A stretch of DNA of 64,000 bases from Zavarzinia marina (GTDB lineage: Bacteria > Pseudomonadota > Alphaproteobacteria > Zavarziniales > Zavarziniaceae). A program made the translations under genes and the position numbers. Below the pieces are notes generated by a model that was given only the letters and a program-made list of their open reading frames with translations, ran no database searches and was not told where the DNA came from. Numbering within the stretch: the stretch's first letter is position 1; the number at the start of each line of letters is the position of its first letter. The stretch lies in NCBI RefSeq assembly GCF_021568905.1, contig NZ_JAKGSB010000007.1, positions 62,001 through 126,000 of the forward strand, given 5' to 3'. Below are positions 27,344-49,677 of the stretch, one piece after another.

Positions 27344-27358
27344 ATTGGATACACGTAT
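27344..27358. promoter_or_regulatory. Cluster A operator-like site (motif A)
   Basis: ATTGGATACACGTAT in the divergent gap between the RidA operon (start 27249, minus) and the alpha/beta hydrolase operon (start 27415, plus). Its reverse complement contains GTGTATCCAAT, which recurs exactly at 31956-31966 and 36108-36118. It is proposed to bind the GntR regulator encoded at 32083-32763. Confidence 0.6.
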
Positions 27359-28227: not shown

Positions 28228-28272
28228 CGCGACGCCCTCCCCCGCCTACTTCGTGAAAAAGGATTTCCTTCA

Positions 28273-30748: not shown

Positions 30749-30749
30749 A

Positions 30750-30778: not shown

Positions 30779-30802
30779 CCTCCCGACAGTCTGCGGAAGA
30801 CC

Positions 30803-31885: not shown

Positions 31886-31950
31886 GAAGCCTCGCTGCAC
31901 GATTGGACGGTGCCCGACCCGAGTGCCGGATTTCCCGCGTCCCAAAACTG

Positions 31951-31966
31951 TACACGTGTATCCAAT
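31951..31966. promoter_or_regulatory. Cluster A operator-like site (motif A)
   Basis: TACACGTGTATCCAAT, containing the palindrome TACACGTGTA and the exact motif GTGTATCCAAT at 31956-31966, about 70 bases upstream of the binding-protein start (31885, minus). It shares 13 of 14 positions with the reverse complement of the site at 27344-27358. Confidence 0.6.
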
Positions 31967-32082
31967 TATGCAGAAGCGCAAAATGAGCGGCAGAACCGAA
32001 GATATCGCTGTTCTTCCGCCGATTCCCTGCGCGCCCGACGCTTTCCCGCCCGAAGTTTCCTCGCCCAACGGGGCGTCGGGTG

Positions 32083-32763
32083 TCAGAGACCGGCGACCTT
32101 GGTTCCGTTCCGCTGGCGCAGGAAGGCGATGACGCTAACAGCGGCCGTATCGATATGGTGGCTGACGGCGCGCTCGGCCAAAGTGCCGTTCTTCGTGCGC
32201 AGCGCGTCGATCAGGGCGCGGTGTTCCGCGCCCTCCATCTCCGGCCGGTCGTAGACGCGATTGTAGAGCAGCAGATAGGGATGCACCGAGGCCCGGATGC
32301 GGCGGATCTCGGCCAGCAGCCGGGCACGGCCCGGAATGCTGCACATATAGTCGTGGAATTCGTCGTGATGGCGCAGCCAGAGCTGCGCGTCATCGGCGGC
32401 GCGATCCATGCGCCCGGCCATGATTTCCAGCTCGTGCAGATGCATTTCCGTGCATTTCACGGCCGCGTGCCGTGCCGCCAGCCCTTCGAGCGCGGCGCGC
32501 ATCTGGAACAATTCCTCCACGTCCTCGGGCTTCAGCGGGGTGACGATGGCGCCGCGGTTGGGCCTGTTGGTGACCAGGCCTTCCGCGTCGAGCTGAACCA
32601 GCGCCTCGCGCACGGGCATGCGGCTGATGCCCAGGACTTCGGCGATCTCCGATGGGACGATCTTGGTGCCGCCCGGAATCGCGCCGCCGACGATCTGGTC
32701 GCGGATATAGCGATAGGCCTGCTGCTGTGCCGATTGCTGAGCATCACCATCGATGAAGGACAT
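32083..32763 (-). CDS. GntR-family regulator, FadR/FCD subfamily (cluster A regulator)
   Basis: 226 residues from the ATG at 32763. The N-terminal winged helix has AYRYIRDQIVGGAIPGGTKI and EIAEVLGISRMPVREALVQL. The C-terminal all-helical FCD domain has the metal-ligand pattern HHDEFHDYM and later histidines (RAVSHHID). FCD regulators bind small carboxylates or ring-cleavage intermediates and usually repress. It is divergent from RidA/amidohydrolase, with TTTGGATCCAAT between, and is the best candidate to bind motif A. Confidence 0.9.
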   Translation of the reverse strand: MSFIDGDAQQSAQQQAYRYIRDQIVGGAIPGGTKIVPSEIAEVLGISRMPVREALVQLDAEGLVTNRPNRGAIVTPLKPEDVEELFQMRAALEGLAARHAAVKCTEMHLHELEIMAGRMDRAADDAQLWLRHHDEFHDYMCSIPGRARLLAEIRRIRASVHPYLLLYNRVYDRPEMEGAEHRALIDALRTKNGTLAERAVSHHIDTAAVSVIAFLRQRNGTKVAGL

Positions 32764-32940
32764 GAAACGCGCTTCTCCCTCTGCCCTGCCGAAAAAGGCC
32801 GATTGGATAGGTACATACCCTGCCCGTCCGAAGCAGGGAAGAGCCATGCACGGTGCCCTTGCGGAACATTGCCACGATACAGCCGATGTCGCGACAGGCT
32901 CGGCGGTGCCGAGGTCGGTTGACGGCAGAGCGCCACCATG

Positions 32941-32952
32941 TTTGGATCCAAT
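32941..32952. promoter_or_regulatory. Palindromic variant of motif A
   Basis: TTTGGATCCAAT, with the perfect palindrome TTGGATCCAA inside, in the divergent gap between the GntR gene (32763, minus) and the RidA gene (32975, plus). It shares ATCCAAT with the other motif-A sites, and ATCCAATTAT with the site at 31951-31966. It probably mediates autoregulation. Confidence 0.5.
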
Positions 32953-32974
32953 TATCCATTTATACGGAGCGATC

Positions 32975-33388: not shown

Positions 33389-33410
33389 CCCGCAATCGAG
33401 GAAAGCCCCC

Positions 33411-34778: not shown

Positions 34779-34807
34779 GCGCCGCGACCTGAAAGCGTCA
34801 GGACAAG

Positions 34808-34843
34808 AAAACGCCGCCCGGACCGAAATCCGGGCGGCGTTTT
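34808..34843. terminator. Bidirectional rho-independent terminator
   Basis: AAAACGCCGCCCGG (34808-34821), loop ACCGAAAT, CCGGGCGGCGTTTT (34830-34843): a perfect 14-bp stem with an A-tract on one side and a T-tract on the other. It lies between the convergent amidohydrolase (ends 34778) and flavin monooxygenase (ends 34866) and can serve both. Confidence 0.9.
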
Positions 34844-34865
34844 ACGTTCGGCGGAATGCCGCCGG

Positions 34866-35999
34866 TCAGGCCCCGGCGACGTAACCATCCGGGATGTGAT
34901 AAGCGCCGCGATTGAGGCCCGCCTGGAACCAGGGCTTCGCCGTCATGGACTGGATGAAGTCCGTGCGCATCGGGCCGAAAGCCGACGGCCAGTGCCCGGC
35001 GAGCAGACCATAGACATAGGACCAGCGCTGGACGTGATCGGTCAGGGCGCGCTGGCGCGTCTCCCAGCGATCGAGGGCGGCCGGAATGTCGTCGGTCCCC
35101 GTCACCTCGGTGGCCAGCGCCAGAACGTTGACGAAGGCGGTGTTCGCCGCCTGGCCCAGGTTCGGCGGCATGGCATGGGCGGCATCGCCGACGATGGCGA
35201 CCTTGCCGCTGGACCAGCGCCGGCACACGACGGCGATGATGCGATCCCAGCGCCCCGCCTCGGCGAAACGTTCCACATAGTCGCGGCAATGCGGGAACAT
35301 GCGGGCCCACAGTTCCCGGTCCACCTTCTTGTCCGACGTCATCTCCTCGACCGGCGCGGCCAGGAAGATGTAGTTCTCGTTGTCGACGCAGGGGTTGAAC
35401 AGCAGGCGATAGGGGCCGTGCCAATTTTCGGTGATGACGTCGTCCGGATCCCCGTCCTTGCGGTCGATCATCATGCGGATGCCACTTTCGACGCCGAAAT
35501 CGGCGAAGCGGGAGCAGTTGAGCTGCTCGCGAAGGCGCGACCAGGCGCCATCCGCCGCCAGGATCAGATCGGCCCGACGGACCTCGCCGGTCTCGAGCGT
35601 GAGGGTGCCCGAAGGATCGACTCCGGTCACGACGGAGGAGGTCTTGATCTCCACGCCGAGTTCCACAACCCGGTCGATCAGCGCCTGATAGAGATCGGCG
35701 CGCGGCGGCAGCAGCAGCTTGTCGCGGTCGTTGAAGGTGCGGCTCATCAGCACCCGCTCGTCCTGATCGACGCAGCGCCATTCCTTGATGTGCTTGGCGC
35801 GGCGCACGGCATCGTCATAGGCGCCGACCACCTGGAGCGACTTCAGGCCGTTCTCCCACATCCAGATGCCGGCGCCGAACATGCGCAGATCCGGCGAACG
35901 TTCGTGCAGAGTCACCTTCCAGCCGAGCTGCGCCATGCGCGCCGCCGCCATCAGGCCGGTCAGGCCGGCGCCGGCGATTTCCACTGTCTGCGTCTTCAT
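34866..35999 (-). CDS. FAD-dependent aromatic monooxygenase, MHPCO-like (cluster A)
   Basis: 377 residues from the ATG at 35999 (an upstream ATG at 36014 is possible). The FAD-binding GxGxxG is AGAGLTGLMAAARMAQLGW near the start, then HERSPDLRMFGAGIWMWENG, DLILAADGAWSRLR (DG motif) and VAIVGDAAHAMPPNLGQ (GD motif). The residue pattern resembles 2-methyl-3-hydroxypyridine-5-carboxylate oxygenase from memory, a single-component NAD(P)H flavin hydroxylase. It is predicted to hydroxylate the ring ahead of extradiol cleavage. It carries a motif-A site upstream. Confidence 0.88.
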   Translation of the reverse strand: MKTQTVEIAGAGLTGLMAAARMAQLGWKVTLHERSPDLRMFGAGIWMWENGLKSLQVVGAYDDAVRRAKHIKEWRCVDQDERVLMSRTFNDRDKLLLPPRADLYQALIDRVVELGVEIKTSSVVTGVDPSGTLTLETGEVRRADLILAADGAWSRLREQLNCSRFADFGVESGIRMMIDRKDGDPDDVITENWHGPYRLLFNPCVDNENYIFLAAPVEEMTSDKKVDRELWARMFPHCRDYVERFAEAGRWDRIIAVVCRRWSSGKVAIVGDAAHAMPPNLGQAANTAFVNVLALATEVTGTDDIPAALDRWETRQRALTDHVQRWSYVYGLLAGHWPSAFGPMRTDFIQSMTAKPWFQAGLNRGAYHIPDGYVAGA

Positions 36000-36107
36000 C
36001 AAAGCCACTCCCAAAATCAGCGACGTCGGCGATCACGGCCACCGCCGACGCTTCATGTCCGACAGCCGGCGGTCTTCACCGGCTGTGCGCGTGGCGATTT
36101 TGTATTT

Positions 36108-36118
36108 GTGTATCCAAT
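36108..36118. promoter_or_regulatory. Cluster A operator-like site (motif A)
   Basis: Exact GTGTATCCAAT about 109 bases upstream of the cluster A flavin monooxygenase (start 35999, minus). It lies between that gene and the end of the cluster B monooxygenase, marking the border of the two clusters. Confidence 0.55.
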
Positions 36119-36208: not shown

Positions 36209-37357
36209 TCAATCCCGTGTGTCGTAGCCGGCCGGCGTATGCCGCGCCCCCCGGAACAGGCCCGCGTTGAACCATTCCATGCCCGCGACGAGACGCACGA
36301 GATCGCTGCGGAGCGGCATGAAGGATGTCGGCCACTTGCCGAGCACCAGATTGTAGATATAGGACCACCATTGCACATGGTCGGTCAGCGGGCGCTGCCG
36401 CGCCTCCCACTCGCGCAGGGCGCCGGGAATGTCGTCCAGGGCGCAGCCGTCCACGGCCATGGCCAGGGCCATGGCATTGCTGAACGCCATGTTGGCCGAC
36501 TGGCCCAGGTTCGGCGGCATGGCATTGGCGGCATCGCCGACGATGGCGACCCGGCCGGACGACCATTCGCGCAGGCGGACGTTGACGATCCGGTCCCAGC
36601 GCGACGCCGTGTCGACGCGGGTGAACAGGTCCCCTGCCGCAGGAAATTTCTCCGCCCAGAAATCGACCTCGACAGGGATCACCCGGGCCCGGTCCTCGCC
36701 GACGGGCCCACCCAGATAGACATAGTCGGAACCGTCGGTGCAGGGATTGAACATCACCCGCCAGGGGCCGGACCACCATTCGGTTATGACGTCGGTCGGA
36801 TCGCCCTCGCGGTGATCCACCAGCAGGCGGAAGCCGCCTTCGACGCCATAGTCCATCCACGCCGTGGCGAACAGGCTCTCGCGCAGGCGGGAATAGGCGC
36901 CGTCGGCGACGACGACGAGATCCGCCCTGCGTTCCTCCCCGCTCTCCATCACCAGGACGCCTTCCTTGCGGACCGCCGTCGCGACCGACGACGTATGCAC
37001 CTCGACGCCGTAATATCCGGCCCGTTCGATCAGCGCCTCGTAGAGGTCGGCCCGAGGCGGCAGCAGCAGCCGGTCCCGCCCCTCGCCCAGCAGGATCTGA
37101 CTCATCAGCAGGCCGCCGTTGCCGTCCTCGATACGCCATTCGCGAATCTTGCGGGCATTGGCCACGGCCTTGTCGTAGGCGCCGAGAATCTTCAGCGCCT
37201 TCAGGCCGTTGTCCCACAGCCAGATGCCCGAGCCGAACATGCGCAGGTCGTCGGCCCTCTCGTGCAGCACCACCTTCCATCCGAGTTGGGCGAGGCGCGT
37301 ACCCAGCGCCAGGCCGGCGAGACCGGCTCCGGCGATTTCGACTTTCTTCTGAGACAT
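36209..37357 (-). CDS. FAD-dependent aromatic monooxygenase, MHPCO-like (cluster B, first copy)
   Basis: 382 residues, paralogous along its length to the 34866-35999 enzyme. FAD motif AGAGLAGLALGTRLAQLGW, then HERADDLRMFGSGIWLWDNG, DLVVVADGAYSRLR and VAIVGDAANAMPPNLGQ. The usual GDAAH histidine is asparagine here (GDAAN). It is divergent from the second GntR gene and has a palindromic AT-rich site upstream. It likely hydroxylates a related but different aromatic substrate. Confidence 0.88.
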   Translation of the reverse strand: MSQKKVEIAGAGLAGLALGTRLAQLGWKVVLHERADDLRMFGSGIWLWDNGLKALKILGAYDKAVANARKIREWRIEDGNGGLLMSQILLGEGRDRLLLPPRADLYEALIERAGYYGVEVHTSSVATAVRKEGVLVMESGEERRADLVVVADGAYSRLRESLFATAWMDYGVEGGFRLLVDHREGDPTDVITEWWSGPWRVMFNPCTDGSDYVYLGGPVGEDRARVIPVEVDFWAEKFPAAGDLFTRVDTASRWDRIVNVRLREWSSGRVAIVGDAANAMPPNLGQSANMAFSNAMALAMAVDGCALDDIPGALREWEARQRPLTDHVQWWSYIYNLVLGKWPTSFMPLRSDLVRLVAGMEWFNAGLFRGARHTPAGYDTRD

Positions 37358-37433
37358 GGTTCGTTCCTTTGCGGATGGACGACGGCTGCGGGGAGGATCG
37401 CCGGCCGGCGTCGGGCCGGGATCGGCAAACTGT

Positions 37434-37447
37434 ATTTTGTATAAAAT
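37434..37447. promoter_or_regulatory. AT-rich near-palindrome, possible motif B variant
   Basis: ATTTTGTATAAAAT in the divergent gap between the flavin monooxygenase (37357, minus) and the GntR regulator (37556, plus). It has the TTTTGxATA core feature of motif B but is not an exact match. Probable autoregulatory site of the cluster B GntR protein. Confidence 0.4.
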
Positions 37448-37555
37448 TTACCGATGCGCTAAGATCAAAGGCCTCCAGACGGACGCACTGCCAGGTTGTC
37501 AAAAGGCCGTGCTGGCGTGGTATCCTTCAATTTCGAAAAGACGCGGACTCACGGA

Positions 37556-38431
37556 ATGCCCAGGACAAAATCGGCGAGTACCCTGCCCGCCCTCGATGCC
37601 GCGGGAATGACCGAGCATGAATCGCTGCCGGCCACGATCTACCGACGCCTGAGGGAGGCGATCCTGAGCGGCAATCTGCGTCCGGGCCAGGTTCTGAAGC
37701 AGGAAGAGCTCGCCAAGCAGTTCAACACCAGCCGCGTGCCCCTGCGCGAGGCGCTGCAACACCTCCAGGCCGACGGTTTCGTCGTCCTGCGGCCGCGCCG
37801 CGGCTATGCCGTCACCGCGCTCGACAGCCAGGAGGTGCTCGGCATCCTTCAGCTTCGGATGCTGATCGAGGGATACGCCGGCTATGTCGCCACCCGCACC
37901 CGCACCCAGGCCGACGTCCGTCAGATCGAGGCGACCCTCCGCGAAATGGAGAAATTCCCCTCCCGCGATCTGACCCAAGCCCAGATCGGGCGCTGGCTCG
38001 TGCTCAACCGCCGGTTCCACGATCAGCTCTTCGCCGCCTCGCGCCGGCCGGACGTGCAGCAGCTCGCCAGCAACATGGCGGCGAAGATCGACCCCTACAT
38101 CATGCTGGAATTGAACACGACCCACGACCTGGTCGACGGCCACCATTTCCATCGCGAGATCTTCGAAGCCTTCAAGGCCGGCGACGCGGCCCGCGTCAGC
38201 GTGCTCAGCCGGGTGCATTGCGAACTCACCGCGCGCCGCTTCCTGTCCGTCCTTCATGGCAAGGGCCTCCTTCTCGAGGTTTCGGAGCAGCAGGTCACCG
38301 ATCTCGGTCCCGCCGCCGCGCTCGAGGCCGGCGGCACCGTCGGACTGCCGGACATCGTCGCCGCGCCCCCCGCAGCGACGATGCCCCCCAAGCCGCGAAG
38401 CCGCGCGCCCAAGACCGCCCGCTCGGCCTAG
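37556..38431 (+). CDS. GntR-family regulator, FadR/FCD subfamily (cluster B regulator)
   Basis: 291 residues. Winged helix: IYRRLREAILSGNLRPGQVL and EELAKQFNTSRVPLREALQHL. The FCD domain covers about residues 95-225, with RRFHDQLFAAS and HHFHREIFEAF for the metal site. A further 60-residue Ala/Pro-rich tail follows, longer than usual. Its stop overlaps the convergent dioxygenase stop by 4 bases. It probably controls cluster B through the TTTTGAATACAAT motif. Confidence 0.88.
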   Translation: MPRTKSASTLPALDAAGMTEHESLPATIYRRLREAILSGNLRPGQVLKQEELAKQFNTSRVPLREALQHLQADGFVVLRPRRGYAVTALDSQEVLGILQLRMLIEGYAGYVATRTRTQADVRQIEATLREMEKFPSRDLTQAQIGRWLVLNRRFHDQLFAASRRPDVQQLASNMAAKIDPYIMLELNTTHDLVDGHHFHREIFEAFKAGDAARVSVLSRVHCELTARRFLSVLHGKGLLLEVSEQQVTDLGPAAALEAGGTVGLPDIVAAPPAATMPPKPRSRAPKTARSA

Positions 38432-39441
38432 GCCGGGTCGCGAGCGACGTCGGGGCCATAGGCGATGTAGCCCATGCCGCCGATCCACTCGGGCACCGGT
38501 TCATAGGCCAGGATTTCGGCCGGGGCGCCCTTCATCGCGCCCATGACGGCAATCCAGTTCAGCACTTCGTGGCCGCCATGGCCGCCGCCCTCCTCGATCG
38601 AATCGAAGGTCATGGCGCGCAGGCTTTCGACGTCGCCCCGCTCGAAGGCATCCAGCACCTCGCGGTCCCAGGCCTCGTTCACCAGCGGGTGCTGATAGCC
38701 GAGCGGCCATTGCTTGCGGTTCATCATGTCGATCTCGTATTGGGCGAGATCGGAATAGAGGGTCGGGTCGCTTTCCAGCACGCCCTTGCCTTCGGTCTGG
38801 TAGCGGCGCTGGCGCTGCAGGAAGCTGTCGTCCTCGGGCGCGGTCTCGGTCCAGACCGGCGGCCAGTGGGACAGGCCGCCGGTCGCCAGGAACAGGACCC
38901 GGCGGTCGTCCGGCATGGCCTCGACGATGCGGCGCACCGCCACGCCCAGGTCGAAGGCCCGCGCCATGGTCGGCAGCGGTGGCGAGAAGACGTTGATGAA
39001 GATCGGCACCACCGGAATGTCGAACTGGGGCCGGAAGAACTTCAGCGGCACCAGGAGATTGTTGCCGTATTCGATCTCGCCCATGCGGGTCATGTCGAAG
39101 CCCGCGCGGGTCAGTTCGCGCAGCAGGTGCTCCGCCGTCTCCGGCTCGCCGGGGATCACCGCCTTCTCGTCGAAGCGCAGCGCCTTCATCATGTAGTCGG
39201 CCGGTCCGGCGTGGCTGGGGGCGATGCCGATGGCCAGCGCCGGCATCAGGGTCCGGAAGTGGTTCTCGAAGTGATCGTCCAGGAAGGCGATGATCAAGTC
39301 CGGCTTGTCCGCCTCGAGACGGCGCGCGTATTCGGCATTGGCGGCGTCGATCTTGCGCCGCACCTCCGCAGGGGGCGAATCCGGCCAGCCGACGGCCCCT
39401 GGCGGATGGGACATGCTGAAGGCTCCGATCACTCTGCTCAT
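38428..39441 (-). CDS. Class III (LigB-type) extradiol ring-cleavage dioxygenase (cluster B paralogue)
   Basis: 337 residues, aligning end to end with the 28273-29268 enzyme. Shared metal-site motifs: SMSHPPG (H12), DDHFENHF and GGLSHWPP. The ends are clearly diverged, but residues around 205-255 are nearly identical to the paralogue, and 122 bases (38690-38811 on the plus strand) are identical, including synonymous positions. It is predicted to cleave the product of the cluster B monooxygenase. It has a motif-B site 57 bases upstream. Confidence 0.9.
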   Translation of the reverse strand: MSRVIGAFSMSHPPGAVGWPDSPPAEVRRKIDAANAEYARRLEADKPDLIIAFLDDHFENHFRTLMPALAIGIAPSHAGPADYMMKALRFDEKAVIPGEPETAEHLLRELTRAGFDMTRMGEIEYGNNLLVPLKFFRPQFDIPVVPIFINVFSPPLPTMARAFDLGVAVRRIVEAMPDDRRVLFLATGGLSHWPPVWTETAPEDDSFLQRQRRYQTEGKGVLESDPTLYSDLAQYEIDMMNRKQWPLGYQHPLVNEAWDREVLDAFERGDVESLRAMTFDSIEEGGGHGGHEVLNWIAVMGAMKGAPAEILAYEPVPEWIGGMGYIAYGPDVARDPA

Positions 39442-39497
39442 CGCTCACTCCTTCGGCGTCATGGCGCGCATCGCGGCGCTCGGCTCTACTAGAGAAT

Positions 39498-39510
39498 ATT
39501 GTATTCAAAA
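39498..39510. promoter_or_regulatory. Cluster B operator-like site (motif B)
   Basis: ATTGTATTCAAAA, the reverse complement of TTTTGAATACAAT, within ATATT...AATAT symmetry at 39496-39513. It lies between the MFS stop (39546) and the dioxygenase start (39441, minus). The same 13-mer occurs at 45978-45990 and 49399-49411. Confidence 0.65.
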
Positions 39511-39545
39511 TATCCGCCAGAAAAAAGGCGGATCGGTGAATGAAT

Positions 39546-40778
39546 TCAGCCGGCCTCCCCCGCCGCCCGGCGCCGCTCGCCGGCGGCGAGACGCATACGG
39601 AACAGGGCCGCCAAGACGGGCAGGCAGACGGCGGCGACCACGAAGGCGGGGCCGAAGCCCGCCCGCTCGATGAGGGCGCCGAGGGCCGTCACGCCCAGGG
39701 CCTGGCCGGTGAAGAAACAGGCGGCGAAGACCGAGATCGCGACGCCGCGCGCCTCCGGCGCCATCTGGGTCGCCTTGGTCTGCATCGTGTTGTGAAACAG
39801 ATAATAGCCGAGCCCGCAGGCGGCGACGGGCAGCGGCAGGAGCCAGGCCGGCGGATGGATCACCAGGCTGCCGAAGGCGGCCGCCAGCAGCAGGCTGCCG
39901 GTGGTGATCATCCGCCCCTCGCCCAGCAGGCGCACGATTCTCGGTGCGAAACTCGTATAGAGCAGGGCCCCGATCCCGAACGCCGCGAGGCAGAGACCGA
40001 CGAAATCATAGTCGAGACCGTATTCCCGCCGGATCAGGGCGCCGACATAGGTGAAGGCGCCGAAGAACAGAAACCCTTCGAAGAACACGGTGATCACCAC
40101 CTGGCGCACCCGCGCGCGGCGCGCCAGGGCGCCATAGGTCGCGAACAATCCCGCGATGCCGCCCCTGGCGCCGGAAGGCACCGGCGCCCGCCCCCGTGGC
40201 CCGAACACGATCAGCAGTACGCCGATCACGACATAGACCACGGCAAGCGCGACGAAGACCCCGCGCCAGCCGAGATGAAGCCCGAGGATGCCCCCGGCGG
40301 CCTGCCCGGTGATGATGCCGAGCACCTGGCCCGAGAGAAAGCGCGCCAGCACGGACTGCCGCTTTTCATAGGGCACGTGATCGCCGATATGGGCAAGGGA
40401 CAGGGGAATGATCGCCGCCGACAGGGCCCCGGCGACCAGCCGGGCGAGGCCGAGGGCGGCGATGTCGGTCGCGAAGGCGCAAAGCAGCGTGGCGAAACCG
40501 CCGACGAAGGTGGCGACGGAAATCAGCCGGTATTTGCCGTAGCGATCCCCCATCGGTCCCCAGAACACCTGACACAGGCCATAGGCCAGGGTGAAGCCGG
40601 TGGCGACGACCGCCGCCTCGTCGACGCCGACATGAAGCTCTTCGGCCACCTGGGGCAGCAGGGGATCGGCGATCCGGGTGCCGGCGGTGGTGGCGAAGGC
40701 GGCGGCGCTCAGCATGGCGATGAAGCGGAAGGACGCGGGGCCGCCCGTGCCCTCCCGCGCGGTAACGTCAGACGTCAT
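39546..40778 (-). CDS. MFS transporter (cluster B)
   Basis: 410 residues with about 12 helices. Motif A is WGPMGDRYGKYRLISV in the loop after the second helix; the N-terminal helix includes TTAGTRIADPLLPQVAEEL, typical of small drug/aromatic MFS proteins. It follows the livF-like ATPase by 3 bases and precedes the dioxygenase. It may import the substrate or export an intermediate. Confidence 0.85.
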   Translation of the reverse strand: MTSDVTAREGTGGPASFRFIAMLSAAAFATTAGTRIADPLLPQVAEELHVGVDEAAVVATGFTLAYGLCQVFWGPMGDRYGKYRLISVATFVGGFATLLCAFATDIAALGLARLVAGALSAAIIPLSLAHIGDHVPYEKRQSVLARFLSGQVLGIITGQAAGGILGLHLGWRGVFVALAVVYVVIGVLLIVFGPRGRAPVPSGARGGIAGLFATYGALARRARVRQVVITVFFEGFLFFGAFTYVGALIRREYGLDYDFVGLCLAAFGIGALLYTSFAPRIVRLLGEGRMITTGSLLLAAAFGSLVIHPPAWLLPLPVAACGLGYYLFHNTMQTKATQMAPEARGVAISVFAACFFTGQALGVTALGALIERAGFGPAFVVAAVCLPVLAALFRMRLAAGERRRAAGEAG

Positions 40779-40781
40779 GAT

Positions 40782-41498
40782 CTAAAGTCCCAGATAGGCT
40801 TGCCTGACCCGGTCGTCGGCCAGCAGATCGGCCGCGCGACCCGACAGCGCGATCTCACCGGTTTCGAGAACGAAGGCGGTATCGGAAATTTCGAGCGTGC
40901 TGCGCACGTTCTGTTCGACCAGCATGATGGTGACGCCGGTCGCCCGGATCTCCTCGATCATGCGGAACAGATCGGCGACGGCCTGGGGCGAAAGGCCGAG
41001 GCTCGGTTCGTCGAGGAGAAGGAGTTTCGGTTCGGACATCAGGCCCCGCGCGATCGCCAGGAGCTGCTGCTGGCCGCCGGAAAGGGTGCCCGCCAACTGG
41101 CGCCGACGTTCCTTCAGGATCGGGTAGCGGTCGTAGAGCGTGGCCGCCAGTTCGACGCGGCGCGCCCTGACGCGCGGCGTGAACGCGCCGATCAGCAGGT
41201 TCTCCTCGACCGTGAAGTCGGGGAACACCATGCGTCCTTCCGGCACCAGGGCGATGCCCGCCTCGACCCGATGGGCGGCGTCGGCATCGGTGAATTCCCT
41301 GTAGTCGTAGACCAGATTGCCCCGGCGCACCGGCAGGAGCCCCGCAATGACCCGCAGCAGGGTGGTCTTGCCCGCGCCATTGCTGCCGATCAGGGCGGTG
41401 ACGCCCCCGGTCCGCACCTTCAGCGACACGCCGTGCAGGACCCGGACTTCGCCATAGCCGGCATGGATGCCGTCGAGTTCCAGGATATGGCCGCTCAT
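40782..41498 (-). CDS. Branched-chain-amino-acid-type ABC transporter ATPase, LivF-like
   Basis: 238 residues. Walker A GSNGAGKTT, signature LSGGQQQLLAIARGLM, Walker B LLLLDEPSLGLSP and switch MLVEQNV mark it as LivF type. The ATG overlaps the LivG-like stop by 4 nt. It is part of a five-gene transporter set on the minus strand; in such catabolic clusters Liv-type systems often import aromatic acids rather than amino acids. Confidence 0.92.
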   Translation of the reverse strand: MSGHILELDGIHAGYGEVRVLHGVSLKVRTGGVTALIGSNGAGKTTLLRVIAGLLPVRRGNLVYDYREFTDADAAHRVEAGIALVPEGRMVFPDFTVEENLLIGAFTPRVRARRVELAATLYDRYPILKERRRQLAGTLSGGQQQLLAIARGLMSEPKLLLLDEPSLGLSPQAVADLFRMIEEIRATGVTIMLVEQNVRSTLEISDTAFVLETGEIALSGRAADLLADDRVRQAYLGL

Positions 41499-42229
41499 GC
41501 CTGCGCTCCGAGATATGCCTGGATCACCTTCTCGTCCCGGATCACCACTTCGGGCGGGCCCTCGCCGATCTTCTCGCCGTGATGCATCACGACGATCCGC
41601 TGGCAGAGCTGCATCATCGCCCTCAGGTTATGTTCGACCACCAGCATGGTGGTGCCCCGCGTCTCATGCACCTGGCGCAGCATGTCGAGGGCGCCCGCCG
41701 CCTCGATCGGCGTCAGGCCGGCCATCACCTCGTCCAGCATCAGGAGCTTCGGCCGGGACGCGAGCGCGCGCGCCACCTCGAGGCGCTTGCGCCCCGCCAG
41801 GGTGAGTTCGCCGGCCAGCTTGTCGCGCATGGCCGAAAGGCCCATCTCCGCCAGCACCGCATCGGTTTCGGCCGCGACCTCGCGGGCCGACGGCGTGCGC
41901 CGCCGCGCCCCGTAGAGCACGCCGACGGCGACATTCTCGGCGACCGTCATGCCGGGAAAGGGCTTCACGATCTGGAACGTCCGGCCGATGCCGCGCCGGC
42001 AGATTTCGTCGGGGCGCCGCCCCTCGATCGCGCACCCCTCGAAGCGGACGCGGCCCGAGGTCGGCGCCATGGCCCCGCTGATCAGGTTGAACAGGGTCGT
42101 CTTGCCGGCGCCATTGGCCCCCATCAGGCCGACGATCTCGCCCTGGGCCAGGGTGAAGCTGACGTCGCTCACCGCCACCAGGCCGCCGAACACCTTGCCG
42201 ACGGCCTCGACCTCGAGCAGCGCGGTCAT
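41495..42229 (-). CDS. Branched-chain-amino-acid-type ABC transporter ATPase, LivG-like
   Basis: 244 residues starting MTALLEVEAVGKVFGGLVAV. Walker A GANGAGKTT, the LivG segment GIGRTFQIVKPFPGMTVAEN, signature LTLAGRKRLEVARAL (LSxGx replaced by LTLAG, common in LivG proteins), Walker B LLMLDEVMAGL and switch VVEHNLRAMM. 4-nt overlaps on both sides couple it to LivM and LivF. Confidence 0.92.
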   Translation of the reverse strand: MTALLEVEAVGKVFGGLVAVSDVSFTLAQGEIVGLMGANGAGKTTLFNLISGAMAPTSGRVRFEGCAIEGRRPDEICRRGIGRTFQIVKPFPGMTVAENVAVGVLYGARRRTPSAREVAAETDAVLAEMGLSAMRDKLAGELTLAGRKRLEVARALASRPKLLMLDEVMAGLTPIEAAGALDMLRQVHETRGTTMLVVEHNLRAMMQLCQRIVVMHHGEKIGEGPPEVVIRDEKVIQAYLGAQA

Positions 42230-43179
42230 GGCGTCGTCTCCCCGGGCACGGCCTTCCGCGACCGCCGGGCGAGGCGCTTGACGGCCGTGCCGTAGATCCC
42301 CTCCGGCATGCGCAGCACGACGAAGACCAGCACGACGCCGAGGATGACCGTGTAGAGCTCGGGCGCCGAATCCCACAGCAGTTCCGATAGGATGTTGAGG
42401 AATAGGGCACCGATCAGCGGCCCCCAGGGATTGTCGCTGCCGCCCGCCACGCACATGGTGATGATGGTCAGCGAAAGCTGCGGGCTGAACATCTGCAGCG
42501 GCTCGAAATAGCCGGTCCGGCAGATCATCAGCGCGCCGACCACGCCCGGGACCAGGGCCGACAGGCCGAAGGCGCCGACCTTCAGCCAGCGGACGCGGAT
42601 GCCCGTCATCTCGGCCGCGACCTCGTTCTCGCGGATCGCGCGCAGGCCGACGCCGAAGCGGCTGTAGCGCGCGACCAGGGCCATGACGAAGGCGATGGCG
42701 GCAAGCCCGACCGCCATGCGGTAGATGTCGACCGGTTCGGGCGTGCCGATCATCAGGCGCCCGAACTTGCCGAGACTCGCCTCGATGTTGATCACCGCGT
42801 ATTTCACGAATTCGGCGACGCCGAGGGTGAGGATCACGAAATAGGGCCCCCGCACCCGCAGGCACGGCCCGCCGACGATCAGCGCCAGCAGGCCACTGGT
42901 GAAACCCGCGGCGACGAGGCCGAACCAGAAGGGCACCGCCCCCCAGGTCAGGATGAAGACATAGGCGCCGGCCCCGACGAAGGCGGCATGTCCCAGCGAG
43001 ACATAGCCGGTATAGCCCGACAGGATCACCCAGCTCTGGACCAGGGCGATCCAGAGCACCAGGGTCGTGGCGAATTCGATGCCATAGTCGCCGGCCATGC
43101 CGGGGACGACGAAGGCCGCGAGCAGGGCGACGACGAGCGCGCCGCCGATGGGGCCGGCGAACCAGGACGGGGCTTTCAT
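42226..43179 (-). CDS. Branched-chain-amino-acid-type ABC transporter permease, LivM-like
   Basis: 317 residues with about nine membrane helices. The family landmarks GYTGYVSLGHAAFVGAGAY, LRVRGPYFVILTLGVAEF and the cytoplasmic loop GVGLRAIRENEVAAEMTGI are all present. Its start overlaps the LivH-like stop by one base (TGATG). Confidence 0.92.
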   Translation of the reverse strand: MKAPSWFAGPIGGALVVALLAAFVVPGMAGDYGIEFATTLVLWIALVQSWVILSGYTGYVSLGHAAFVGAGAYVFILTWGAVPFWFGLVAAGFTSGLLALIVGGPCLRVRGPYFVILTLGVAEFVKYAVINIEASLGKFGRLMIGTPEPVDIYRMAVGLAAIAFVMALVARYSRFGVGLRAIRENEVAAEMTGIRVRWLKVGAFGLSALVPGVVGALMICRTGYFEPLQMFSPQLSLTIITMCVAGGSDNPWGPLIGALFLNILSELLWDSAPELYTVILGVVLVFVVLRMPEGIYGTAVKRLARRSRKAVPGETTP

Positions 43180-44060
43180 CAGTGCGCCCCCTTTCTGCCG
43201 AACAGGCCCTGGGGCCGCAGCATGAGAACCGCGATGAAGACCCCGTAGATCAGGAGATCGCGGAAGTTCGGCCCGGTGAGCGCGATGCCGGCGGTCTCGA
43301 GCAGGCCGACGACGAGCCCGCCGATGATGGCACCGTTAATGTTGCCGAGGCCGCCCAGGATGATCACCACGAAGCCGACCGTGGTATAGGGCCCACCCAT
43401 GAAGGGCGTCACCGCCTGATACATGCTGATGACCGCGCCGGCCAGCCCGGCCAGGGCGAAGCCGACCACGCTGGCGAAGGTGAAGGCGAAATCGACGTTG
43501 ATGCCGACGATCGCCGAGGCGGCGCGATTCTGGATCAGGGCACGGACGCCCAGCCCCCAGATCGAAAACTTGAGGAAGGCGAGAACCGCGCCGATCGCCA
43601 CCACCGCGACGGCGAGGGCGACCAGCCGGCTCTCGGTGACCGCGATGCCGCCGAATTCGACGATGCCGTCGAAATAGCGATAGGCCCGGGGCGTCCCGCT
43701 GAACAGCAGCGACGCGGAATTCTGCACGACCATGGAGATGCCGAAGAAGACGAGGAGCGACGAGCCTTCGACGGCATCCCCCTGCACCCGCCGCAACAGC
43801 CCCGCGAACATGCCGCGATAGAGCAGCAGCCCGAACAGGCCCGAGACGGCGGGAGCAATCAGGAAGGATACATAGGGGGGGACATCGGCCAGAGTGAACA
43901 GCCAGAAGCTGATATAGGCGCCGACCATCGCCATGTCGCCGTGACCGATGTTCAGCAGCCGCATGGTGCCGTAGATCAGGTTGAGGCTGACGGCGATCAA
44001 GGCATAGATGGCCCCGGTCGTCAGCCCCACGAAGACGAGTTGCGCAATCACCGATACCAC
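43179..44060 (-). CDS. Branched-chain-amino-acid-type ABC transporter permease, LivH-like
   Basis: 293 residues from a GTG with GTAGGGG just upstream. Landmarks: GLTTGAIYALIAVSLNLIYG, RLLNIGHGDMAMVGAYI and the EAA-like loop GLGVRALIQNRAASAIVGIN, with GGLGNINGAIIGGLVVGL near the end. It forms the membrane channel with the LivM-like protein. Confidence 0.92.
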   Translation of the reverse strand: MVSVIAQLVFVGLTTGAIYALIAVSLNLIYGTMRLLNIGHGDMAMVGAYISFWLFTLADVPPYVSFLIAPAVSGLFGLLLYRGMFAGLLRRVQGDAVEGSSLLVFFGISMVVQNSASLLFSGTPRAYRYFDGIVEFGGIAVTESRLVALAVAVVAIGAVLAFLKFSIWGLGVRALIQNRAASAIVGINVDFAFTFASVVGFALAGLAGAVISMYQAVTPFMGGPYTTVGFVVIILGGLGNINGAIIGGLVVGLLETAGIALTGPNFRDLLIYGVFIAVLMLRPQGLFGRKGAH

Positions 44061-44095
44061 CCCCTACGCGGGTCATTCAACGCCGGCGCGGCCGA

Positions 44096-45304
44096 TCAGG
44101 ACCATCCCTGCTTGGGCTTGAAGGTCGCGGTCGCGATTTCCTTCGGCCAGACGATCTCGAGTTCGCCGTTCTGGACCTGCAGGAGACCGGGCTTGGTGGC
44201 GACATTGTCGTTGCCGTCGAATTTGATCGGGCCCTTGATCGTATCGAAGGTATCGGTCGAGATCACCTCGCGGAGCTTCTCGTGGTCCAGGCCGACCTTG
44301 GCCACCGCCTGCTCCAGGATCTCGCACGAGGCATAGGAGATCACGGAATCGAGGTAGTCCGGCTTCTCGTTCCACTTCGCCATGTAGGCGTCGTAGAAGG
44401 GCTTGGCCTTCGGCCACGCCGTCTGGCTGGGCGACCATTCGCCGATGGTCATCAGGCCCTCGAGATCGGCGCCCGTATACTGCTGCGAGAAGAAGGGCAG
44501 CGCCGGTCCGATGAACAGGAGCTGCATGGGTACGTCGATCTTCATCTCCCGCGCGGTCTTCACGTAGAGCGCGGAATCGAGCGGATAGGACAGGCCCAGC
44601 ACCGCCTTCGATCCGGCCGCCTTCACGGACCCGACCATGGCGGTCATATCGGTGATCGAGTTCGGATATTCGTCGTTCGCGTCGAGCCGGATGCCTGCCT
44701 TCTCCAGCTCCGGCGTCAGGAACTTCTTGAATTCCAGCGATGCGGGAAGCTGCAGGGTCAGCATCGAGGCGGAATCGATGCCGACGGACTGCATGAACTT
44801 CACCATCTCGGGGGCATAGACGTCCGGCGCCTGCTGGCCTGCCCACATGTATTTGACCCCCAGATCGCGCAGCAGCGTCGAATTGGAGGTGGAACCGACG
44901 ATGGGGAACTTATGGCGTTCCGCGACCGGCCCGAGAGCCAGATGGAACGGGGTGCCATAGGGCGAGAGCAGCAGATCGACCTTATCCTGCGTGATCATCT
45001 TCTGATAGATCTGCACCGTCTTCGACGGTTCGGACTGGTCGTCGTAGCTGATGAATTCGATGGGCCGGGGCTCCGAGCCCGCGATCTTCAGGCCGCCAGC
45101 CGCGTTGACCTGGTCGCGCCACAGTTCGTAGGCCTGATAGGCCACCGGACAGGCGACACCCAGATAGCCGGTCTTCGGCATGGTGAAGCCGATCTTCACG
45201 GGTTCCACCGCGCGCGCGCGCCGATGAATGGCGAAGGACGCCCCGGTGGCCGCCGCGCCGGCTAGTACCGTCCTGCGGGTGATCTTGCGATTTTTCGTGC
45301 CCAT
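44096..45304 (-). CDS. Substrate-binding protein of the Liv-type ABC importer
   Basis: 402 residues starting MGTKNRKITRRTVLAGAAAT, with a twin-arginine pair at 10-11 and a hydrophobic stretch ending ARA: a probable Tat signal. The mature protein is a peripla_BP_6 (LivJ/aromatic-acid-binding) type: KIGFTMPKTGYLGVACP, LLLSPYGTPFHLALGPVAE and PIVGSTSNSTLLRDLG. It is followed directly by livH/M/G/F-like genes. The ligand is probably the catabolic substrate. Confidence 0.9.
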   Translation of the reverse strand: MGTKNRKITRRTVLAGAAATGASFAIHRRARAVEPVKIGFTMPKTGYLGVACPVAYQAYELWRDQVNAAGGLKIAGSEPRPIEFISYDDQSEPSKTVQIYQKMITQDKVDLLLSPYGTPFHLALGPVAERHKFPIVGSTSNSTLLRDLGVKYMWAGQQAPDVYAPEMVKFMQSVGIDSASMLTLQLPASLEFKKFLTPELEKAGIRLDANDEYPNSITDMTAMVGSVKAAGSKAVLGLSYPLDSALYVKTAREMKIDVPMQLLFIGPALPFFSQQYTGADLEGLMTIGEWSPSQTAWPKAKPFYDAYMAKWNEKPDYLDSVISYASCEILEQAVAKVGLDHEKLREVISTDTFDTIKGPIKFDGNDNVATKPGLLQVQNGELEIVWPKEIATATFKPKQGWS

Positions 45305-45402
45305 GTCATGCCCCTTGCTGGCGCGGGCGCCGCCCGTTACGGGGAACGCACCGCTCGGTTGATCCGGATACGCCTGACTTTCGATCTCCCAGGCCAAGGC
45401 AG

Positions 45403-45424
45403 GGGGCCGGCCGCGGCCGGCCCC
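45403..45424. repeat. 22-bp perfect palindrome
   Basis: GGGGCCGGCC (45403-45412), GC, GGCCGGCCCC (45415-45424) between the RidA stop (45434) and the binding-protein start (45304) on the minus strand. A strong RNA hairpin is expected. Without a U-tract it may attenuate or stabilise rather than fully terminate, setting different levels for RidA and transporter. Confidence 0.6.
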
Positions 45425-45433
45425 GCCGTACCG

Positions 45434-45856
45434 TCAGACGACGGCGATACAGTCGATTTCCACCAGCATCTCCTCGTGGGACAGGCCGGAGCCGACCAGG
45501 GTGCGCGGCGGCGGATTCTCGCGGCCGAAATAGTGGAAGATGGCTTCGTTCAACTGGTTCTGAAGCGACATGTCCGTCAGATAGACGGTCATCTTCACCA
45601 CGGACTGGAGGGTGCCGCCCGCCGCCTCCAGGACCATGATCAGATTGGCCATGGTCCGGTCGAACTGTTCGCGAAAGCCGCCGGCCACCCATTCCTTCTC
45701 TTCCTCGGGCACATGGGGGTGCTTGTGGTAGAGGGGGACGGGGCCGTTGCCCGCGATCCAGAGAATCCTGCCGCCTTCGCTCGTCACCGCCGGCAGAAAC
45801 GGCATATTGTATTCAGGAAGCGGCTCTTTCGGGTGGATGGGCTTGATCTCGACCAT
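45434..45856 (-). CDS. RidA family protein with conserved Arg (cluster B)
   Basis: 140 residues. RidA features: ILWIAGNGPVPLYHKHPH, FREQFDRTMANLIMVLEAAG, VKMTVYLTDM and the ending MLVEIDCIAVV. Unlike the three cluster A members, it keeps the catalytic-type arginine, PPPRTLVGS. An extra N-terminal HKHPHVPEEEKEW segment is unusual. It is divergent from the formamidase-like hydrolase, with a shared motif-B site. 2-Aminomuconate deaminases belong to this superfamily, one possible role here. Confidence 0.88.
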   Translation of the reverse strand: MVEIKPIHPKEPLPEYNMPFLPAVTSEGGRILWIAGNGPVPLYHKHPHVPEEEKEWVAGGFREQFDRTMANLIMVLEAAGGTLQSVVKMTVYLTDMSLQNQLNEAIFHYFGRENPPPRTLVGSGLSHEEMLVEIDCIAVV

Positions 45857-45974
45857 GTGTCACATCTTTCTGCACTGGAAGTTATGGATCGGCTTTCGCG
45901 GACTGCCGTACGCCCGGGCCGTGCCGGCGCCAAACCTGAAAAAATCGTGTCATTCTCCATCTCGACCGTCAATC

Positions 45975-45990
45975 CATTTTTGAATACAAT
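45975..45990. promoter_or_regulatory. Cluster B operator-like site (motif B)
   Basis: CATTTTTGAATACAAT, in the divergent gap between the RidA gene (start 45856, minus) and the hydrolase gene (start 46091, plus). The identical 16-mer occurs at 49396-49411, and its 13-base core at 39498-39510 in reverse. A second partial copy (CTATATTCAAG) follows at 45994-46004. Confidence 0.65.
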
Positions 45991-46090
45991 CTTCTATATT
46001 CAAGTGGTGGCGGAACCTGTCACGAGGCCCTGGACCGCTCGAACCGGATCGCATCGCCGCCCATCGGGCGGCATCTGTTGGAGTAGAGAG

Positions 46091-46975
46091 ATGTCGGCAT
46101 ATCCCGCCTGGAGCACCTATTCCCCGAAGGACCTGCACGGCCAGTACATCGTGCGCGAACAGGTGCCGGACTTCCGGTCCTTCCTCGACCGCTGGCGCGA
46201 CACCAGCAAGCCGGTCCGGGCCGAGTTTTCGGATCATCTCGACATCCGCTTCGGCGATCACCCGGCCGAGACGCTGGACGTTCTACTGCCGAAGACCTGG
46301 GCCCCGGGCACGCCGGTCCAGGTGCTCTTCCACGGCGGCTACTGGCGCGCCCTGCACAAGGACGAATATGCCTTCGTCGCCCTGCCCGGCCTCCGCGCCG
46401 GCATCGGCGCCGTGATCGTCAACTACGAGCTCTGCCCGAATGTTTCGATGGCCGAGCTGGTCGCCCAATGCCAGCGCGGCTTTGCCTGGACCGTGCGCAA
46501 CATCGCCCAATTCGGCGGCGATCCCGGCAACCTCTATCTCTCGGGCCATTCCGCCGGCGGGCACCTGGTCGGTTCCATGCTGCAGACCGACTGGAAGACC
46601 TTCGGCCTCGGCGATTTCGCCATCCGGGGCGCCTGCGCGCTGTCCGGCCTCTTCGACCTGACGCCGATCCCCTCGGTCGCCAACCTTCAGGACGACATCC
46701 ACCTGACGCCCGAGGAAGTGACGGCGCTCAGCCCCATGGTCCACCCGATCGCCAACGTCGTGCCCCTGGTCCTCGCCAATGGCGCGCTCGAAACCACCGA
46801 GTTCCATCGCCAGACGGCGGAATATGCCGACTATGCGCGCAGCAGCGGTGCCATCGTCGATTTCCACGATGTCGAGGGCCGTCATCACTATTCGGTGGTG
46901 GACGCCCTGGCCGATGCCGATCATCCGCTGTGCCACGCCTGGCACCGCGCCGTGCTCGGCGGCTCGATCGGCTGA
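46091..46975 (+). CDS. Alpha/beta hydrolase, kynurenine-formamidase/esterase-like
   Basis: 294 residues. Oxyanion motif HGGYW at 81-85 and nucleophile GHSAGG at 152-157 (Ser154), with a late catalytic histidine in GRHHYSVVDAL, as in arylformamidases and related carboxylesterases. The fold family hydrolyses N-formyl or ester bonds. TGATG overlap joins it to the next flavin monooxygenase. Substrate is not known; N-formyl or N-acyl product of ring opening is plausible. Confidence 0.87.
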   Translation: MSAYPAWSTYSPKDLHGQYIVREQVPDFRSFLDRWRDTSKPVRAEFSDHLDIRFGDHPAETLDVLLPKTWAPGTPVQVLFHGGYWRALHKDEYAFVALPGLRAGIGAVIVNYELCPNVSMAELVAQCQRGFAWTVRNIAQFGGDPGNLYLSGHSAGGHLVGSMLQTDWKTFGLGDFAIRGACALSGLFDLTPIPSVANLQDDIHLTPEEVTALSPMVHPIANVVPLVLANGALETTEFHRQTAEYADYARSSGAIVDFHDVEGRHHYSVVDALADADHPLCHAWHRAVLGGSIG

Positions 46976-48114
46976 TGGCCGGGCCCTTCCGCGCCGAGAT
47001 CGCCGGCGGCGGCATCTGTGGCCTGGCCACGGCCGCCGCCCTGGCGCGGGCGGGCTGGCGCGTCCGCGTCCACGAACGCCAGAGCGCGCTGCGCACCATC
47101 GGCGCCGGCCTCTATATCTGGGAGAATGGTCTCCGCGTGCTCGAAGTCCTCGGCTGCTACGACGCCGTGATCCGGGACGGCCACCGGGGGTCGGTCTTCG
47201 AGATCCGGGACTGCGACGGCGGCATCGTCGATCCGGGCCATCTGCCGCCTTCGATGCGCGTCTATACCGTGCCTCGGGAATGGGTGCTGGGCGGCCTGCG
47301 CGGCGCGGCGGTCGCGGCCGGGGCCGAGATCGAGGTCTCATCCCAGGCGGTGGGGGCATCCGAGGAGGGCCGCCTCGACCTCGCGGACGGACGCCGGCTC
47401 GAGGCGGACCTCGTCATCGGGGCGGAGGGGGTGCGCTCCCGCGTCCGCGACAGCCTCGGCCTGCTCCGGGTCGACGACACCACGGCCGAAGGCTCCATCC
47501 GCCTGATCGTGCCGATCCGGGACGACGACTTCTCGGATGCCGATCGGGGCAAATACATCGAACAATGGGCCGGCCACCGCCGCCTGCTGATCACGCCCAT
47601 CAACCGCCGCGAAACCTATCTCGCCTTCAGTGCGCTCGACTCGGACCCCGGATGCCGGCTACCGCTCGACCGTGACGACTGGAAGGCCGCCTTCCCCATG
47701 TGGTCGCATCTGATCGACCGGGTGACCGACGACATGGGCCATTGGGACGTCTACAGCATCATCAAGCTGAAGGCCTGGTCGGTCGGCCATGTCGCCGTGA
47801 TCGGCGACGCCGCCCACGCCCAGCCGCCCAATCTGGGTCAAGGCGCGGGGATGGCGATGCAGAACGCCCTCGCCCTCGCGCATCTGCTGGACGGCATTCG
47901 CGACCGGAGCGAGATCCCGGCACGGCTTCGGGCCTGGGAAGCGTCGGAACGGCCGATCGTCGAACATTGCCAGAAATATTCGGCGCTCTACGGCGAGGTG
48001 ATCCATATGCCCGAGATGCTGCGCCGGCGCGCCTTCGCCGCCGGCATGAACGATCCCTGGCTTTCGGCGCAATTCTTCAAACCCGCCCTGCATCACCCGA
48101 CCGGCTGCCCCTGA
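46975..48114 (+). CDS. FAD-dependent aromatic monooxygenase, MHPCO-like (cluster B, second copy)
   Basis: 379 residues. FAD motif EIAGGGICGLATAAALARAGW, then GAGLYIWENGLRVLEVLGCYD, DLVIGAEGVRSRVR and VAVIGDAAHAQPPNLGQGAG. Of the three paralogues, this looks nearest to 2-methyl-3-hydroxypyridine-5-carboxylate oxygenase in its early region (GAGIYLW-NGLRVLE pattern, recalled rather than searched). It is co-transcribed with the formamidase-like hydrolase. Its 3' end overlaps the convergent MFS gene by 38 bases. Confidence 0.88.
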   Translation: MAGPFRAEIAGGGICGLATAAALARAGWRVRVHERQSALRTIGAGLYIWENGLRVLEVLGCYDAVIRDGHRGSVFEIRDCDGGIVDPGHLPPSMRVYTVPREWVLGGLRGAAVAAGAEIEVSSQAVGASEEGRLDLADGRRLEADLVIGAEGVRSRVRDSLGLLRVDDTTAEGSIRLIVPIRDDDFSDADRGKYIEQWAGHRRLLITPINRRETYLAFSALDSDPGCRLPLDRDDWKAAFPMWSHLIDRVTDDMGHWDVYSIIKLKAWSVGHVAVIGDAAHAQPPNLGQGAGMAMQNALALAHLLDGIRDRSEIPARLRAWEASERPIVEHCQKYSALYGEVIHMPEMLRRRAFAAGMNDPWLSAQFFKPALHHPTGCP

Positions 48115-49321
48115 CCGGCTGTCCCTCCTGACCGTTCCCCACCGGTGGGGGCACGACGACGGCGGCGGTCGACAGCAGGGCCGCCCCGGCCAGCAGGACG
48201 GCGCCCGCGGCGAACAGCCAGGAAAAGCCGACGAAGCCGGCCAACAGTCCGACCGCCAGCGCGCCGATCGCCATGCCCGTATCGAAGGCGTTGAAGAACA
48301 GGCCGTTGGCCCGTGCCCCTTCCGTCTTGGGAAAGATCATCACCATCCAGGCCTGGACCGCGGGCTCGACGATGCCGAAGCCGGCGCCGAACAGGGCGGC
48401 GGCGGCGAACAGGCCCACCGTCCCCTCCAATCCCGCCAGCACGGCATAGCCGCCCGCCGCGAACAGGAAGCCGGGAACCAATACATGGCGCAGGCCCCGG
48501 CGGTCCTGGACATGGCCGGCGGGATAGCGCACCACGACGGCGGCGAGCGCCTGGACCAGAAAATAGACCCCGGCATCGGCAATCCCCAGGCTGACGGCAT
48601 AGACCGGCAGAAACGACATGGTGGTGCCATAGCAGAGCGACATCAGCATGATCGCCGCCACCGGCGCCGCCGGGCGAACTCCCGCGCCGGGCCGGCCCCG
48701 GCGCTCGACGCGCGCAGGCCCGGCCCCGGTGGCGGCTGCCCCTTTGGCGGCCCGCGTCTCGGCGGCCGGCAGCACCACGGCGAGCGCGACCGCGACCATC
48801 GCCAGCGCGATGCCCGCATTCGCGGTATTGCCGCCCCAGTCGACATAGACGATGAAGCCGGCGAACGGCCCCGCCACCATGGCGAAGGTCGTGCCGATGC
48901 CGAAGAGACCGACGGCCCGCCCCATCCGCTCGTTCGGCACGGCGGCCAGAACCCAGGCGTTCAGGGCCGTGGTCGAAAGCCCGTAGCCGATCCCGAAGAC
49001 CGTCCGCGCCACCAGGACCAGGCCGACTTCCTGGGCGACGAGTTGCAGGATCAGCGCCACGCCTTCGAAGATCATGGCCGCGACGGCGATCGCCTTCAGG
49101 CCGAAACGGCCGGCCAGCCGGCCGCCGACGACGCGCGCGGCAAGGGCGGCGCCGACCATGGCCGCCATGGCCACCCCCATGGCGGCACTGCCGCCGCCCA
49201 GGTCGCCGATCAGCAGCGACACCACCGGAAAGCAGAATTCCAGCGCCATGAAGGAAAAGAAGTTGGCGAGGAAGAGCAGCCAGAAGCCGGGCCCGAACGA
49301 ATAAGCAGTCAAGGCCGGCAT
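48077..49321 (-). CDS. MFS transporter (cluster B)
   Basis: 414 residues from the ATG at 49321; longer upstream frame lacks a site. About 12 helices; motif A is GGRLAGRFGLKAIAV, and the second half has GHVQDRRGLRHVLV. The central loop (about 185-225) is Ala/Arg-rich. It has a motif-B site 75 bases upstream of its start. It probably moves the cluster B substrate or efflux product. Confidence 0.85.
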   Translation of the reverse strand: MPALTAYSFGPGFWLLFLANFFSFMALEFCFPVVSLLIGDLGGGSAAMGVAMAAMVGAALAARVVGGRLAGRFGLKAIAVAAMIFEGVALILQLVAQEVGLVLVARTVFGIGYGLSTTALNAWVLAAVPNERMGRAVGLFGIGTTFAMVAGPFAGFIVYVDWGGNTANAGIALAMVAVALAVVLPAAETRAAKGAAATGAGPARVERRGRPGAGVRPAAPVAAIMLMSLCYGTTMSFLPVYAVSLGIADAGVYFLVQALAAVVVRYPAGHVQDRRGLRHVLVPGFLFAAGGYAVLAGLEGTVGLFAAAALFGAGFGIVEPAVQAWMVMIFPKTEGARANGLFFNAFDTGMAIGALAVGLLAGFVGFSWLFAAGAVLLAGAALLSTAAVVVPPPVGNGQEGQPVRGSRSGDAGRV

Positions 49322-49677
49322 ACAGCGTCTCTCCCTCGCCCGGTTTGGCGCCATACCGACGGACCGCCGCCATGGATCGCGGGTCCCCCGGATGGCATTT
49401 TTGAATACAATATAAATTAAACGCACTGTCAACGATGCCCGCGCGAGGCCCCACCGAAGGCCGTCTCGCAGGGTGTCTGCTATCCGGTGGCGACTCGTCC
49501 GATCGGCCGACGGACGACGGACGACCGACGGCGGCGCCACCGGCACCGACTGGGGCATCGCACGCCACTATTCCCCGCCCGAACTGAACAACACGGAATT
49601 CGGCCTCGACCACATTCACTGTCGGGGCCGCCTGCCGTTCCTTCGCACGACGCCGGCCAATCGCAGCCCTGGAACCG
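49322..49677. other. Intergenic region with motif B, otherwise no gene
   Basis: Contains the motif-B site (49396-49411) and an AT-rich stretch to about 49425 that is the likely promoter of the MFS gene. The remainder to 49677 is GC-rich with no convincing coding frame; it may be decayed upstream sequence of the kdpE-like remnant. Confidence 0.45.
49396..49411. promoter_or_regulatory. Cluster B operator-like site (motif B)
   Basis: CATTTTTGAATACAAT, identical over 16 bases to 45975-45990, followed by AT-rich ATAAATTAA. It lies 75 bases upstream of the MFS start (49321, minus) and is the last site of the series. Confidence 0.65.

Follow-up and report, generated by a model that had tools for sequence, protein, structure and literature searches.

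A repeated operator-like palindrome and its probable FCD-domain GntR regulator in a hydroxypyridine-type gene cluster of Zavarzinia marina

The window, by which we mean the whole analysed stretch of 64,000 nucleotides from Zavarzinia marina, holds two adjacent gene clusters, cluster A (22983-36014) and cluster B (36209-49411), whose transporters and regulators differ (Table 1). The cluster A dioxygenase (28273-29268) is 72% identical to that of cluster B, and the cluster A monooxygenase (34866-36014) is 56% identical to the first monooxygenase of cluster B. Because of these paralogous PydA-like dioxygenases and MHPCO-like flavoenzymes both clusters look hydroxypyridine-catabolic. The cluster B dioxygenase scores 426.9 bits against NF009913, below the cut-off of 462, and contains DDHFENH, one of two conserved PydA segments (PMC3637104); the other, EWICGM, reads EWIGGM in this protein and EWITGM in the cluster A dioxygenase. 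It is 67-69% identical to plasmid dioxygenases of a Novosphingobium and of legume rhizobia, whose hosts include Leucaena, Acaciella, Desmanthus and Vachellia. Cluster B probably serves catabolism and uptake of a substrate that we name only as hydroxypyridine-type.

The pyd genes for 3-hydroxy-4-pyridone, known from Rhizobium sp. TAL1145 (cited in PMC3637104), share the PydA-like dioxygenase with both window clusters. Cluster A further resembles the rhizobial clusters in its alpha/beta hydrolase, sugar-type ABC transporter, FAH and RidA genes, whereas cluster B has another transporter set and two flavin monooxygenases, and the rhizobial pyd GntR shares no more than about 24-27% identity with GntR A or GntR B. 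A conserved pydA cluster that also encodes pyruvate carboxylase, a PatB-type lyase and GntR/LysR regulators, and that is reminiscent of mimosine degradation, occurs on five plasmids (L010, L011, L013, L014 and L015) whose rhizobial hosts come from mimosoid and other legumes. In the open-access literature that we searched, GntR control of a pyridine-catabolic cluster like cluster B was not described.

Table 1. Genes and operator-like sites of clusters A and B (positions in the window)
Feature	Position	Strand	Remarks
Cluster A operator-like core TTGGATACA	27345..27353	+	upstream of cluster A hydrolase and dioxygenase
Cluster A core TTGGATACA	31957..31965	-	upstream of sugar-type substrate-binding protein
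GntR A, FCD-domain GntR regulator of cluster A	32083..32763	-	Pfam; 31% identical to GntR B (blastp)
Perfect TTGGATCCAA palindrome	32942..32951	n/a	between gntR A and cluster A ridA; core of VanO ATTGGATCCAAT
Cluster A core TTGGATACA	36109..36117	-	upstream of FAD monooxygenase 34866-36014
FAD monooxygenase, 2-methyl-3-hydroxypyridine-5-carboxylate oxygenase (MHPCO)-related	36209..37357	-	PDB search E 1.5e-52
Weaker operator copy B4, TTTTGTATAAAAT	37435..37447	+	2 mismatches; fourth-best matrix match in window
GntR B, FCD-domain GntR regulator, proposed cluster B repressor	37556..38431	+	Pfam, structures, relatives' sites
Class III (LigB) ring-cleavage dioxygenase, PydA-like	38428..39441	-	NF009913 E 6e-128
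Operator copy B1, TTTTGAATACAAT	39498..39510	-	exact; 57 nt upstream of dioxygenase start (39441)
MFS transporter and branched-chain-type ABC genes (substrate-binding protein, two permeases, two ATPases)	39546..45265	-	
RidA-family protein	45434..45856	-	
Possible auxiliary site TCCTGAATACAAT	45806..45818	-	inside 5' end of ridA, 172 bp from B2; fifth-best matrix match
Operator copy B2, TTTTGAATACAAT	45978..45990	+	exact; about midway between divergent ridA (start 45856) and hydrolase (start 46091)
Alpha/beta hydrolase (46091-46975) and second FAD monooxygenase (46975-48114)	46091..48114	+	
MFS transporter	48077..49321	-	
Operator copy B3, TTTTGAATACAAT	49399..49411	+	exact; 78 nt upstream of MFS start (49321, gene on -)

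The preliminary description had reported a 13-mer, TTTTGAATACAAT, at three places in promoter gaps of cluster B. Pattern searches recovered exact matches at all three (B1 to B3), each in such a gap, and at no other place either in the window or in the whole genome (3,951,514 bases, ~3.95 Mb), where the reversed pattern used as a control gave 0 matches. The 16 bases said to be common to two copies proved to be CATTTTTGAATACAAT, found at 45978 and 49399. Allowing up to three mismatches, the window contained seven matches to TTTTGAATACAAT against 1.2 +/- 1.1 in shuffled sequences. When the five cluster B gaps, 943 bases in all, were dinucleotide-shuffled, three copies of some 13-mer arose once in 2000 trials, and three copies of some 12-mer in none of 2000. 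In the ranking given by a matrix built solely from the three exact copies, these were followed by TTTTGTATAAAAT, which corresponds to the looser near-palindrome described beside the second GntR gene, by TCCTGAATACAAT within ridA, and then by cluster A sites at 36106 and 32940. As a matter of speculation, TCCTGAATACAAT may be either an auxiliary (looping) site or a coincidence of the coding sequence.

The centre of B2 lies 107-128 nt from both divergent starts, and a promoter scan predicted a -10 hexamer, TACAAT, within it (TCGACC-17-TACAAT). Read by eye on the gene strand, a perfect TTGACA precedes the TGTATT of B3 by 17 nt, which puts TGTATT in the -10 place. Three promoters, those of the hydrolase, the dioxygenase and the MFS gene, have the site across their likely -10 region. 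B4, the weakest of the cluster B sites, lies about midway between the divergent FAD-monooxygenase and gntR B genes (84 and 115 nt from their starts), and is proposed as the autoregulatory site of gntR B. The same about-midway place in divergons, as occupied by B2 and B4, is known for FadR-subfamily regulators, for which Suvorova and co-workers described a single site near the middle of the divergent gap, slightly nearer to the structural gene (PMC4494728).

The repeat could on these grounds be taken for a mere -10 element or a chance AT-rich word, given that TACAAT is a good -10 hexamer and that the copies sit in AT-rich gaps while the genome, like the window, has 68% GC. Such a reading is highly improbable, as the repeat is absent from every other promoter of the genome, points the other way with respect to the MFS gene and is met again next to related regulators in bacteria of other orders. 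We rejected it on the exclusivity of TTTTGAATACAAT to cluster B and the shuffling results given above.

The candidate regulator, GntR B, has both domains of an FCD GntR protein with scores above the gathering thresholds (GntR PF00392, 1.1e-19; FCD PF07729, 8.4e-20). A search of the genome's contigs with this protein returned one remote match only. Among the solved structures nearest to it is 6z74 (5e-14), which we take to be that of Atu1419. Its recognition helix, SRVPLREAL, aligns with the SRxPxRE of its relatives and retains the arginine that would read the operator guanine, a role taken from Atu1419 (PMC7797058). The motif itself is an imperfect palindrome, TTGAATACAA, apparently of the kind that FCD regulators of the VanR group bind. 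Compared with the FadR-subfamily pattern, an A/T-rich palindrome with TKGT and ACMA boxes and GT/AC 2-3 nt apart, its 3' ACAA fits, its 5' TTGA is one base off TKGT and its spacing of 2 fits; published operators are usually more symmetric.

The closest parallel among the systems compared is Atu1419 of Agrobacterium fabrum, a VanR-group repressor whose ATGTATACAT sites overlap -10 boxes, whose binding is abolished when G3 and C8 of the operator are changed, and which also engages a degenerate palindrome lying 109 bp off within a gene (PMC7797058), the precedent for a possible auxiliary site in ridA. GntR B is sequence-related to this VanR-group FCD protein; the 10-bp palindrome with G3 and C8 is kept in TTGAATACAA, and the overlap with -10 regions and the control of several aromatic-catabolic promoters including its own (PMC7797058) are likewise what we propose for GntR B. 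The Atu1419 operator differs from motif B in the outer bases and at position 4, its effector is a folate compound (PMC7797058), and looping by a tetramer is a feature of Atu1419.

The VanR/VanO system, which we presume to originate from Caulobacter, shares the architecture TTG-N-AT-N-CAA with the window sites, and the core of its operator is identical to the TTGGATCCAA at 32942 in cluster A. Motif B is not of the VanO type, being TTTTGAATACAAT with a TTGAATACAA core whereas VanO is ATTGGATCCAAT (PMC7970624), and VanR/VanO controls vanillate genes where those of the window are pyridine-type. The TTGGATCCAA at 32942-32951 is also the core of an operator employed in synthetic biology.

The link between motif and regulator was followed into other bacteria. 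The best GntR B relatives, encoded on Novosphingobium and Thioclava plasmids, have TGAATACAAT or TTTTGAATACAAA in nearby promoter gaps. On pSA1 of Novosphingobium resinovorum a GntR 46% identical to GntR B shares its locus with a PydA-like gene, and TGAATACAATCTA occurs at L012:14632, 19932 and 20082, the last copy standing just before that GntR's own gene. The Thioclava plasmid encodes two relatives (38% and 42%) and carries TTTTGAATACAAA and TGAATACA in two divergent gaps, FAH/Rieske and lyase/gntR. When the matrix of the window sites was applied to the upstream regions of ten GntR B relatives the combined p was 1e-5, with single p values of 0.005-0.045 in five of the ten and no support in the other five; in this footprint test start codons were set by hand, p was limited by 200 shuffles and the relatives are not fully independent. 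By eye, a related site could be read in every one of the ten, in the five unsupported relatives for example CCTGTATACAGG, CCGTATACAATCTACA and TTGGATCCAATCTAC, and relatives at 36-41% identity favour TTGGATACAA or CGTATACAA.

The pydA-like loci G065:C27 and G415 have neither motif B nor a close GntR B relative beside the dioxygenase; since both are missing together, the motif appears to follow the regulator rather than the dioxygenase, and these two loci fit that tie as weak evidence for it. The rhizobial pyd clusters have a different GntR. Two GTATCC words stand between gntR and pydA in both of the copies that were read, but they are not evidence because the two regions are nearly identical overall. 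Homologous clusters were almost absent from the family of the window genome, and sampling at class and at phylum level (~400 genomes each time) turned up the dioxygenase in a single further genome each. The reading of the motif as an operator-like element of cluster B is supported, and its presence beside GntR B relatives in other bacteria ties it to the regulator at 37556-38431.

Taking these results together, we consider it very likely that GntR B, a regulator of the FCD/VanR type, has TTTTGAATACAAT as its operator and would switch cluster B as a local autoregulated repressor regulon. Local repression with autoregulation is proposed because of the kinship with Atu1419, the overlap with -10 regions and the G3 and C8 kept in TTGAATACAA. 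A GntR B dimer would bind the imperfect palindrome at sites overlapping or abutting the dioxygenase and MFS promoters and those of the divergent ridA and hydrolase genes, while B4 would serve the divergent monooxygenase/gntR pair and so allow autoregulation. All these promoters would stay shut down until GntR B let go in response to an effector, probably one of the pathway's compounds, so that cluster B would be switched as one local regulon. GntR B might instead act at these sites as an activator, or in both ways, as some FCD regulators do activate, for example CitO (PMC4746285), and the site in front of ridA sits immediately before a possible -35 box; we regard this as improbable, the likely -10 overlap at the hydrolase, dioxygenase and MFS promoters being typical of repression, as in Atu1419.

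How far cluster B is switched apart from cluster A is a more delicate matter. The 9-base cores, TTGGATACA in A and TTGAATACA in B, differ at a single position, and the flanks differ too. TTGRATACA occurs seven times in the genome, at the three A sites (with G), at the three B sites (with A) and once elsewhere; two cases of TTGNATNCAA or TTGRATACA outside both clusters, when inspected, had no clear link to cluster B. The claim of a distinct cluster B motif therefore holds for one core base and the flanks, but 'distinct' overstates the difference between cores that are otherwise alike.

The recognition helices read SRMPVRE in GntR A and SRVPLRE in GntR B. The discriminating base, which follows TTG, is G in the relatives of GntR A and A or T in the closest relatives of GntR B (A in Novosphingobium and Thioclava, T in the G065 relative, 51%); more remote GntR relatives have G or T, and the base is therefore variable in the wider group. 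The GntR A relative of G021 (44%) has three TGGATACA sites nearby (L031 3598, 6474 and 18156), and no site with A at the discriminating position was found in its neighbourhood. Some of these TGGATACA sites are followed by half-site-like ATTATCC or TTTATAC, as at 32942 of the window. Each of the two window regulators has, in another genome, a relative closer to it than the regulator of the adjoining cluster is, from which we infer that GntR A and GntR B were separately recruited rather than duplicated in place.

The sites of both clusters may nevertheless form one shared regulon, with one or both GntR proteins binding both site types and the clusters cross-regulated. The two clusters contain six of the genome's seven TTGRATACA sites, the A sites are the next-best matches of the B matrix, and the G3 and C8 contacts, essential in Atu1419, are kept at both site types, so that some cross-binding is conceivable. 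We find a shared regulon rather unlikely, as the differing base is G in three of three window copies in A and A in three of three in B, the A-type relative of G021 has only TGGATACA whereas the B-type relatives of Novosphingobium and Thioclava have TGAATACA, the flanks differ as well, and the two regulators are only 31% identical. What makes separate switching plausible is that the discriminating base goes with the clade of the regulator and that the two proteins are so dissimilar; with motifs that differ in one core base plus flanks, it is put forward as a working hypothesis. We offer only tentatively the broader picture of paralogous pyridine clusters under two separately recruited FCD repressors, with operators kept apart by essentially one base (TTG-G-ATACA as against TTG-A-ATACA).

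A switch made of an FCD/VanR-type repressor and its operator is of an ordinary type for bacteria, and cluster B itself appears previously undescribed. This pyridine-catabolic cluster gains a candidate regulator, a candidate operator and a list of targets. Clusters A and B lend themselves to a compact test of how two related FCD repressors within the same genome tell their operators apart and provide, if the broader picture is true, a natural pair for measuring how little difference in DNA insulates two related regulators within a cell.
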